Assembly: GCA_018240565.1 (NCBI GenBank)
Contig: JAFEFO010000022.1
Coordinates: 1 to 64,000, forward strand
Length of the DNA stretch: 64,000 nt
Reading direction: 5' to 3'
DNA from: Pseudomonadota bacterium
GTDB lineage: Bacteria > Pseudomonadota > Gammaproteobacteria > Xanthomonadales > Rhodanobacteraceae
The notes under the pieces were generated by a model. The model was not told the DNA's origin. It saw only the letters and a program-made list of their open reading frames with translations, and ran no database searches. Shown in pieces: positions 40,282-43,740 of the stretch (position 1 is the stretch's first letter; every line of letters starts with the position of its first letter). Made by a program: the position numbers and the translations under genes.

Positions 40282-40950
40282 TCACGCAGCCCACCACACC
40301 AACGTCGCCACGAGCGCGGCGCAGAGCGCGACCAAAACCAGCGCCAGCCAGCTACTGGCGAAGCGCAAGTCGCGCATCGCGCCGACGCGCTTGGCGCCGG
40401 TGAACATCGGCGTGATCAGATTGTCGTGCTTGAGCAGCAGATACAGCAGCACGGCCACGATGTGCAGTCCAATGAGGACCAGCAACAGGTTCTCGTTCCA
40501 GTGGTGCACGCGCGTCATCAGCTTGACGGTCTTGCCGGATACGTGCGCCACCAGCGGGCCGTCGGTATCGATGTCGTCGCTGGCGAACAATCCACTGATC
40601 GCCTGCACGGCAACGCACGCCAGCAGCGCCAGCACCGACCAGCCGCCGAGTGGATTGTGTCCGATGCGCGTTGGCACATGTGCAGACATGGACTCGCGCA
40701 GGTAGCGCCACACCGCCCCAGGGCCACGCACGAAGTCGGCGAAGCGGCTGGTCTGCGAACCGAAAAAACCCCACAGCACGCGGAAGGCGATCAACACCAG
40801 CGTGGCGTAGCCGAACCGGAAATGCCAGTCCATGTCGAGGAAATGGAATTCCCCGGTCGCGTATTGCAAGCCGATCAGCACCACCAACGACCAGTGGAAC
40901 AGGCGCGTCGGCAGGTCCCAGACGCGTTGCGATTGCGGGGGTGCATTCAT
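40282..40950 (-). CDS. Cytochrome b561, bacterial type
   Basis: 222 residues from the ATG at 40950, overlapping the murD2 stop (ATGA). N-terminal VWDLPTRLFHWSLVVLIGLQYATG carries the first haem-ligand His. Four membrane helices with further His (HFRFGYATLVLIAFRVLWGFFG, TRVHHWNENLLLVLIGLHIVAVL) match bacterial di-haem b561. It would transfer electrons from the quinone pool to a periplasmic acceptor, possibly the adjacent cytochrome c'. It is the last gene of the lys-mur operon. Confidence 0.87.
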   Translation of the reverse strand: MNAPPQSQRVWDLPTRLFHWSLVVLIGLQYATGEFHFLDMDWHFRFGYATLVLIAFRVLWGFFGSQTSRFADFVRGPGAVWRYLRESMSAHVPTRIGHNPLGGWSVLALLACVAVQAISGLFASDDIDTDGPLVAHVSGKTVKLMTRVHHWNENLLLVLIGLHIVAVLLYLLLKHDNLITPMFTGAKRVGAMRDLRFASSWLALVLVALCAALVATLVWWAA

Positions 40951-42404
40951 CGGATTCCCAGTCCTTCGATGTGGGCAATGGCGGCGGGATCGAATCCCGC
41001 CAGGCGCGCGAATTCGCGGCCGCGTTCGGCGTAGTCGTGGAACTGATCGAAGCTCGGCGCGCCGGGCGAGAGCAGCACCACGCCACCCGCGGGCGTGTGC
41101 GCCCGCGCGACGGCGACCGCCTCGGCCAGTGTCGCTGCCGACTGCACGGCGAATCGCGGCGCAGCGACTGCCCTCAATGCTTGCGCGATATGCGGACCAT
41201 TGGCGCCGCTGGCGATGATGGCGAGCGGCGCATGGCGCGCGACATGTTCCACGAAGGGACTCCAGTCGACGCCGCGATCGAATCCGCCGACGATGACAGC
41301 GACCGGGCGCTGGCCAATGCTGTGCAGCGCTTCTACCGTCGCGTACGGCGTAGTGGCAATGCTGTCGTTGATGTATTCGATGCCATCGCGCAATCCCAGC
41401 GATTGCAGTCGGTGCGGCAGCGGCGTGAAGTTGCGGACGTACGGTGCCGACGCAACAGCATCCAGTCCCGCCGCATCCAGCGCCGCAAGCGCGGCGCACG
41501 CATTCATCGCATTGTGATCGCCCGGAACAGGCAGTCGCGCCAACGGCAGCACTGTCACGTCGTTGCGCCGGATCGCACCGTCGCGCACATGCCAGCCAGT
41601 CGCGTCGCCAAACGACACGCGCTGCGGATGCGATTTCGTGCGCTCGATCAAATCAGGCTGCGCGGCATTGACGATCAGCGTGCGCGCGGCATCGGCGAGT
41701 TTCAGTTTGTCGGCGACGTAGCGCTCGCGCGTGCCGTGCCAGTCCAGGTGTTCCTCGTACAAATTCGTGATCACGCCGACCTCGAGTGGCCCGGCCTCGC
41801 CAGTCTGGAAACTCGACAATTCGACCACCCACAAGTCTGCGCGCTGGCCATCCAGATCGAGCAGCGGCATGCCGATGTTTCCCGCGAGTGCGGTGCGGAC
41901 CCCGAGCGAGCGCGCCAGATGTGCGATCAAGGCGCTGGTCGTGCTCTTGCCCTTGGTGCCGGTCACGCCGATCACGCGCGCACCTGGATTTTCGGCAAAC
42001 CACAACGCGGTACCCGAAGTGAATTTCACGCCGGCGGCGAGCGCTTCGGGTACAGGCGATTTGTACGGGCTGATTCCGGGCGATTTGATGATGATGTCGA
42101 ACTTCCCAAGCGAAACGGCATTGGGTGGCGTCGTAATGATCTCAATCAAGCCCCTCTCCCCTTGCGGGAGAGGGGTTGGGGAGAGGGGCAGCTTGTGAAT
42201 GCCTGAATGCGACGGATGCTTCTCACCCTCTCCCCCATCCCCTCCCCCATCGAGGGGGAGGGGAGAAATCTGTCTTGCTTCGGATTCACTGCAAAACAGC
42301 GAAATCGACTTACCCGCAAATCGCCTGCGCAAGGCTGCCAACGCCGCCCTGCCCTCGCGGCCAAAACCCCAGACCGCGACGCGCGCCTGTTCGAGTTCAG
42401 CCAT
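40947..42404 (-). CDS. murD2: MurD2: UDP-MurNAc-L-Ala--L-glutamate ligase with in-frame repeat
   Basis: 485 residues from the ATG at 42404 (an alternative ATG is at 42410), overlapping murL by 8 bp. N-terminal VAVWGFGREGRAALAAL is characteristic of MurD2, as is the KSPGISPYK segment. The ATP site is VIGVTGTKGKSTT (~136-148); ligase motifs include ELSSFQTGE, EEHLDWHG and PLPHRLQ. It adds L-Glu to UDP-MurNAc-L-Ala, and MurL then epimerises it. Residues ~47-85 are an insertion encoded by a GC-rich repeat; flanking sequence reads through without frameshift. Function beyond this is likely intact since key motifs are all downstream. Confidence 0.87.
   Translation of the reverse strand: MAELEQARVAVWGFGREGRAALAALRRRFAGKSISLFCSESEARQISPLPLDGGGDGGEGEKHPSHSGIHKLPLSPTPLPQGERGLIEIITTPPNAVSLGKFDIIIKSPGISPYKSPVPEALAAGVKFTSGTALWFAENPGARVIGVTGTKGKSTTSALIAHLARSLGVRTALAGNIGMPLLDLDGQRADLWVVELSSFQTGEAGPLEVGVITNLYEEHLDWHGTRERYVADKLKLADAARTLIVNAAQPDLIERTKSHPQRVSFGDATGWHVRDGAIRRNDVTVLPLARLPVPGDHNAMNACAALAALDAAGLDAVASAPYVRNFTPLPHRLQSLGLRDGIEYINDSIATTPYATVEALHSIGQRPVAVIVGGFDRGVDWSPFVEHVARHAPLAIIASGANGPHIAQALRAVAAPRFAVQSAATLAEAVAVARAHTPAGGVVLLSPGAPSFDQFHDYAERGREFARLAGFDPAAIAHIEGLGIR
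42151..42266. repeat. GC-rich double-hairpin repeat inside murD2, in frame
   Basis: Two hairpins at the element's ends: CCCCTCTCCC/GGGAGAGGGG (42151-42160 and 42166-42175) and CCTCCCCC/GGGGGAGG (42241-42248 and 42254-42261). They are linked by ~65 bp. The base composition is unlike murD2 around it. Translated on the minus strand it gives the familiar SPLPL...GEGE...SPTPLPQGERG type of peptide that such intergenic repeats produce in proteobacterial genomes. Confidence 0.85.
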
Positions 42405-43740
42405 GCGCATGCAGCAGGCCTTGCAAACGGAACGGCAGGAAATGCTGTGAAGACGGCGCCAGCAGCGGAGCAAGATCGAGTCCGGCGCGATCCAGTTGCG
42501 GCGCGATTTCTTCGACGAAGCGCGCGATGAGTGCGTCCTCGCGCCACTCGGCGCGCTGCGCCAGCGCTTGCATGGCGGCGCGCGATTCGCGGCCCTCGCC
42601 GACGCATTCGAAAGGTTTGTGTTCGCGGTATTCGAGCAATGCGTCGAAGCCGGACGCGAGTTCCGCATCGTCGAGCAGATTGCGGCCGAAGATCGCGAGC
42701 AGGCGCGGCTTGGCCACGAACGGCGCCAATGCCAGAAACACGAAATGGCATTTCGGACATTGCCCGCACCAGCGATCGGCGGGTTTTTCGCCGCGAATGC
42801 GAAAGTTCCGATTGCAACTGGAAAATACCTCGTCGTAGCGCGTGCTGCGCGCAAACGCTCGCGTCACGGCGAGCTCCGACCACGGCCGCAGCAGCGAGAA
42901 ATAGTCCAGATCTGCGGCGATATGCGACTTTGTGTACTCGCGCAGGAGCCGCTCGAAATCCAGCGACTTGCTCCATTGGTGATTGACCGGCTGGCCGTCG
43001 TATTCGAGCGTCGCCACTGACGCCGACGCCTCGTTGGAGAACGCGATTGCATCGAAGCCGTAGAGGATCGCCGCGCAGATCAGGATGGCCGAATTGATCG
43101 CCGTCACCGGGATATGGCCGTTGTGCGCACCGAGCCGGTTGTATTCGAACAATTCCGGCGCGAGACGACGCTTCAGATTCAACGTCGGCAATCCGGTGCG
43201 CTGCGCGCAGGCCGCGATCAGCGCCGAATCGCCGACCCACACAGCGGTCATCGGCTCGTCGACGCTTTTCAGCATCTCGACGCTGACCAGCGAATCCTTG
43301 CCGCCGCCGATGGGAACGAGGGTGCGGCGCGCAAGATGCAACACCGGCGCTGATCCTGCGCTGACTGCTGCATGCGGAAAGCGAATCTTGCCGCGCAAAT
43401 CCACGGCATTGCGATATGCGAATTCCGCCAGCCCGTGCGCGTAGACGGTATCCATGAAGCGCGCGAGGTCGGCGTCCAGCGGCGCGCCCTCGACCATGAT
43501 TTCTTGCGGGATGCCGGCCTTGTAGTAACTCACGCCCGCGATCAGATGCAGCAAGCGCAACGCGGCGGCAAACGCGGATTCTCGCTCGGGCGGCAGCGCC
43601 GGCGCATCCGGAAAGCCGATGCGCTCGACCAGCTCCGGACCGTCGTCGAAGGCGTACACAAGCTGCGCCTCGCCCTGCGCATAGGTGCAACGCACGAAGC
43701 GGAAAACCTTTGCCTGGCGTGGGTCGATCAACGCGTTCAA
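42397..43740 (-). CDS. murL: MurL: UDP-MurNAc-L-Ala-L-glutamate epimerase
   Basis: 447 residues, typical for MurL. The PP-loop-like nucleotide motif PIGGGKDS is at ~142-149; the protein then contains a conserved Cys-containing region (FSSCNRNF, WCGQCPKCHFVFLAL, ~300). MurL uses ATP to epimerise the terminal L-Glu to D-Glu on the nucleotide precursor, replacing the usual MurI plus MurD route. It sits directly before murD2 (8-bp overlap) and after lysC/lysA (ATGA overlap), as in xanthomonads. Assignment is from recall of the family; no alignment was run. Confidence 0.85.
   Translation of the reverse strand: MNALIDPRQAKVFRFVRCTYAQGEAQLVYAFDDGPELVERIGFPDAPALPPERESAFAAALRLLHLIAGVSYYKAGIPQEIMVEGAPLDADLARFMDTVYAHGLAEFAYRNAVDLRGKIRFPHAAVSAGSAPVLHLARRTLVPIGGGKDSLVSVEMLKSVDEPMTAVWVGDSALIAACAQRTGLPTLNLKRRLAPELFEYNRLGAHNGHIPVTAINSAILICAAILYGFDAIAFSNEASASVATLEYDGQPVNHQWSKSLDFERLLREYTKSHIAADLDYFSLLRPWSELAVTRAFARSTRYDEVFSSCNRNFRIRGEKPADRWCGQCPKCHFVFLALAPFVAKPRLLAIFGRNLLDDAELASGFDALLEYREHKPFECVGEGRESRAAMQALAQRAEWREDALIARFVEEIAPQLDRAGLDLAPLLAPSSQHFLPFRLQGLLHAHG

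Follow-up and report, generated by a model that had tools for sequence, protein, structure and literature searches.

How does a palindromic repeat come to lie inside the reading frame of a cell-wall ligase, and with what consequence for the enzyme? The murD2 gene (MurD2 ligase; minus strand, 40947-42404) is an open reading frame of 485 amino acids, located within the window, the whole 64-kb stretch of DNA that was analysed. A palindromic doublet at 42147-42266 (minus strand) encodes MurD2 residues 47-86, the stretch SPLPLDGGGDGGEGEKHPSHSGIHKLPLSPTPLPQGERGL. The first-pass annotation had described a two-hairpin repeat in the murD2 frame, with the frame open on either side. That description was borne out: by alignment the insert comprises 40 residues (a 120-bp stretch), its net length is divisible by three, and no stop interrupts the coding frame.

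Each half of the doublet forms a hairpin. The first unit (42151-42175; arms CCCCTCTCCC and GGGAGAGGGG) includes a perfect inverted repeat, 42151-42160 with 42166-42175. The second unit, inverted with respect to the first (42238-42264; arms TCCCCTCCCCC and GGGGGAGGGGA), includes another, 42238-42248 with 42254-42264. R1, a covariance model built on the 42-base unit, matches the former at 42148-42189 (E 1.2e-12) and the latter, on the other strand, at 42224-42266 (E 4.7e-7). The two units are linked by an inner stem (42172-42241) in which 42172-42187 is 88% complementary to 42226-42241 across a 38-nt spacer; this stem is also present in the predicted RNA fold of the insert. The element ends are inverted repeats, and the comparison for target-site duplication is limited to empty-site relatives about 60-75% identical in protein. 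The murD2 copy is the only one within the 64-kb window.

TIGR01087 (murD) matches the MurD2 protein at E 1.5e-96, from residue 96 onward only; relatives are 56-72% identical over full length; and the predicted fold superimposes on that of E. coli MurD with Z 39.9 and rmsd 2.4 Å over 419 residues. Adjacent lies murL (minus strand, 42397-43740; NF041275 MurL_Xanthmoales, E 5.2e-230, above cut-off). It shares eight bases with the murD2 start (42397-42404, letters ATGGCTGA), an overlap that points to probable coupled translation of the two genes, upstream of the insert. Glutamate racemase, MurI, was not found in the host genome (G000), a MAG of 2.99 Mb that is 94% complete, such that absence is no proof; nor do the matches listed for this genome include another MurD-like one better than E 5e-9. 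A MurD fold, an adjacent murL, and no MurI found are what is expected for MurD2, the L-Glu-adding MurD, and the gene set fits the alternative L-Glu route known from Xanthomonas (PMC8788868). Because murL is adjacent, MurI was not found, and no second MurD-like match is listed, MurD2 is probably indispensable in this bacterium, judging from its gene content; to call the enzyme essential, as had been done, was a fair inference.

The insert could act at the level of the message, and an RNA hairpin affecting murD2 translation had indeed been proposed. Folded as mRNA, the insert is very stable (-78.1 kcal/mol, z = -4.7), and none of 200 shuffles is equally stable. Such a hairpin might slow ribosomes or alter message stability, tuning MurD2 against MurL, with which it is probably co-translated. 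However, any palindrome folds in this way, and genes unrelated to one another carry the element, in either order and in several frames. Moreover, no Rfam family reaches threshold: the 47 matches all fall far below gathering scores, and most are to eukaryotic miRNA models, which are uninformative since those models match any hairpin. Nothing tested speaks for an effect on translation, and we consider this regulatory explanation unlikely.

What, then, has the protein gained? In an alignment of the host MurD2 with 39 homologues, the insert has no counterpart. All but one of the homologues (38 of 39) carry 2-14 residues at the site; the nearest relatives carry 4-7, and the net gain over these is about 35 residues. 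The exception (L054) has 43 residues of unrelated sequence. The other relatives searched likewise lack the insert. The AlphaFold model (pLDDT 85.6; residues 48-75 below 50) places the insert in the N-terminal domain, after helix 40-46 and before strand 87-90. This upholds the earlier placement in an N-terminal-domain loop with ligase motifs retained. As modelled, the MurD fold is intact, and the insert is a disordered loop of about 40 Pro/Gly/Ser-rich residues.

The exceptional homologue comes from a different species of the genus, Rudaea sp. (L054:3001-4509; same gene in L107), and its 43-residue insertion occupies the same N-terminal loop. It was considered as a copy of the repeat, and rejected for want of any match to the repeat model. 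Insertions have thus entered this loop twice, and the loop therefore tolerates them.

A codon-usage gene finder sets the start of murD2 at the element, where an SD-like purine run lies just upstream of L86. Conceivably, then, MurD2 is made by restart at a TTG codon (L86, ~42149) behind the purine-rich arm GGGGAGAGGGG, its first 46 residues being a decaying remnant. Yet these residues are 50-67% identical to those of relatives and keep all of the alignment-invariant positions (L4, A10, W12, G13, G15, R16, E17, G18, C38, and E42), and the gene finder does no more than mark down the repeat's odd codons. We judge restart very improbable. Relative to the rest of the protein, the 46 residues are somewhat more diverged than is typical (rank 38 of 40, inside the range), which would fit mildly relaxed constraint on this segment. 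Inserts of this type can lead gene finders and MAG annotators to misplace start sites.

The element is dispersed in the host genome, as the search for further copies confirmed: BLAST with the murD2 element finds 23 places, and R1 finds 43, grouped into 37 loci. The unit has the layout CCCCTCTCCC-loop-GGGAGAGGGG followed by TTGGGGAGAGGGG, and occurs either alone or in inverted pairs separated by a spacer. Sequence was read around all of the loci, in stretches surrounding the matches, and in-gene status was judged by spanning ORF, gene model, and family evidence; flank codon scores were set aside as unreliable, owing to shadow frames. Eleven of the 37 loci (about 30%) lie in frame inside conserved genes. 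Besides murD2, these are icmF (L113); genes for a GT4 glycosyltransferase (L118), an Lhr-type helicase (L137), and a molybdopterin oxidoreductase (L142); metG (L120); gcvP (L125); polA (L146); hrpB (L147); and the genes for two components of 2-oxoacid dehydrogenase complex, E2 (aceF, L121) and E3 (lpd, L130), all called on family evidence. A further locus (L148), with a spanning ORF that lacks family support, was left out of the count. The first-pass annotation was thus right that a dispersed repeat forms part of the MurD2 frame; its statement that such elements are normally intergenic is not borne out in this genome.

In comparison with solved homologues, the inserts of GcvP and HrpB map to variable loops, and that of IcmF to a linker of low conservation; overall, the ten further in-frame copies mostly sit in linkers and loops. 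Among ten same-strand neighbour pairs at intergenic loci, none proved to be one gene broken by the element; all are separate genes (RuvA/RuvC, for example). The other loci were judged from gene models only. The in-gene inserts have on average 4.26 open frames of six, versus 4.16 in dinucleotide shuffles. Selection for stop-free repeats was therefore rejected, and the openness of the frames is attributable to composition.

The murD2 insert itself is carried by one MAG only, as it would be if a repeat had been misjoined into murD2 during assembly of the metagenome bin. However, a misjoin would rarely leave the two halves of the gene in position and still in frame, and the ten other in-frame cases lie on different contigs. 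Other species have such cases too: a single-contig genome from another genus (G062) has the element in frame in valS, lpd, and hutF, and intragenic copies are therefore no MAG artefact. An assembly error in murD2 is accordingly scarcely credible. A copy in hutF is also present in G011.

Contigs often end near repeats. In the nearest relative (G015, 81%), contig C80, at the end of L011, stops about 70 bp short of the murD2 insertion site.

To which class does the element belong? It shares with REPs and REPINs a short palindromic unit that is dispersed and, in murD2, arranged as an inverted pair; it shares with the Rickettsia palindromic elements (RPE) its in-frame copies in 11 conserved genes. 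The terminal GTAG or CGTC tag is absent from the consensus of 15 units, and no Y1_Tnp/RAYT gene (PF01797) was found in the 94%-complete host genome; the element is kept out of the tagged REP superfamilies on these two grounds. Mobilisation by RAYT was considered and rejected. In addition to the missing gene, copy number in the genus does not track Y1_Tnp presence, RAYT-bearing relatives having no higher copy number, and R1 has no match near the Y1_Tnp loci of G014, G008, G004, or G011. The best reading of the sequence is a REP/REPIN-like or MITE-like element that would fall outside the tagged superfamilies and behave like their members.

In-frame palindromes in core proteins are already documented, and the family described here is a further case of a rare kind of event. 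According to the available text of Di Nocera et al. 2013 (PMC3733652), intragenic GTAG/CGTC REPs are short palindromes, often in inverted pairs, that add 20-30 (up to 82) residues within ORFs. That text places them in tRNA synthetase (including Xanthomonas tRNA synthetases), uvrA, DNA polymerase, and other housekeeping genes of many species, and does not name murD2. The repeat of the host genome likewise forms inverted-pair palindromes in ORFs, but its units are without the terminal tag. RPE (Ogata et al. 2000, 2002, as cited in PMC5896051 and PMC3733652) are dispersed palindromes that have been retained as in-frame insertions in many conserved protein genes. Their host is an intracellular alphaproteobacterium, whereas ours is a gammaproteobacterium with GC-rich repeats, and the likeness is one of description only. 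REPINs, in which two inverted REP units and a spacer form one larger, dispersed hairpin (Bertels and Rainey 2011, PMC3116915), have a similar paired-unit layout; in the host genome, by contrast, RAYT was not found and many copies are intragenic. The QMITEs of Coxiella burnetii, MITE-type repeats that sometimes lie in frame within ORFs (PMC5896051, available portion), are a separate family from another organism, and the in-frame cases given there concern hypothetical proteins or a gene end. The present repeat offers a well-populated case of mobile palindromes read as protein in core enzymes, outside Rickettsia and the tagged REP superfamilies.

The murD2 insert is very probably an intragenic copy of this dispersed paired palindrome, translated and tolerated as a disordered loop. 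The paired repeat would have entered murD2 after the host species split from the sampled relatives, presumably by transposition through an element-moving enzyme. Ribosomes would read through it, its net length being a multiple of three and its frame free of stops. MurD2 would thereby have gained a disordered loop of some 40 residues, kept since it does little harm; near-neutral tolerance would follow from the 3n net length, the stop-scarce composition, and the permissive surface loop. Comparable in-frame insertion would have occurred at least ten more times in the host genome. A cell-wall ligase that is present in single copy and carries an additional disordered loop allows a clean with/without comparison of the cost of an insert.

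Relatives provide a measure of age. Among 59 genomes sampled from the family, 26 contain the repeat unit, and copy number across the family ranges from 0 to 26. In-frame copies occupy the same place in the E2 linker in four species, in the E3 linker in three, and in MetG, IcmF, and the GT4 glycosyltransferase in two species each. Around the shared E2/E3 insertions, the flanking sequence has diverged at 26-43% of its synonymous sites, and these copies are therefore old. That they stay in frame, with pN/pS inside of 0.23-0.44, might suggest that the MurD2 insert too is selected for protein function, for instance by acting as a linker or as a peptide that binds a partner; but that ratio rests on tiny counts (1-12 changes). 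Synonymous sites in the inserts are unusually conserved as well, and the E2 insert of the host is strongly divergent from its counterpart in G015 (pN 0.36). The first-pass annotation had entertained a selected protein change; nothing tested speaks for selection, and we regard a selected function as very improbable.

Synonymous differences inside the shared E2 inserts (L161, L171, and L182) are 0.07-0.14, versus 0.26-0.39 in the flanking gene, on small counts. The shared E3 inserts (L130, L183, and L191) are likewise less divergent at synonymous sites than their flanks, also on small counts. Low synonymous divergence suggests either copy-to-copy homogenisation or constraint at the DNA level.

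The proportion of copies lying inside genes seems to differ between lineages: of 27 loci read in G060 and G031, none scored as in frame, in a comparison that used one codon model and is indicative only. Tentatively, an untagged palindromic family may have become largely protein-coding in a clade of small-genome Rudaea relatives, with ongoing, lineage-specific protein lengthening driven by an undiscovered mobiliser. On this reading, the permissive sites that hold different elements across species or genera would be those in E2, E3, MetG, IcmF, GT4, and HutF. Since the IcmF and GT4 elements differ between species, as do the E2 inserts of the host and G015, the pattern suggests that permissive sites are re-used or that elements are turned over in place. 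Recurrence at the same sites provides natural replicates. Different elements at about the same site were seen across species or genera in icmF (L113 and L181), the GT4 gene (L118 and L157), and hutF (L188 and L223).
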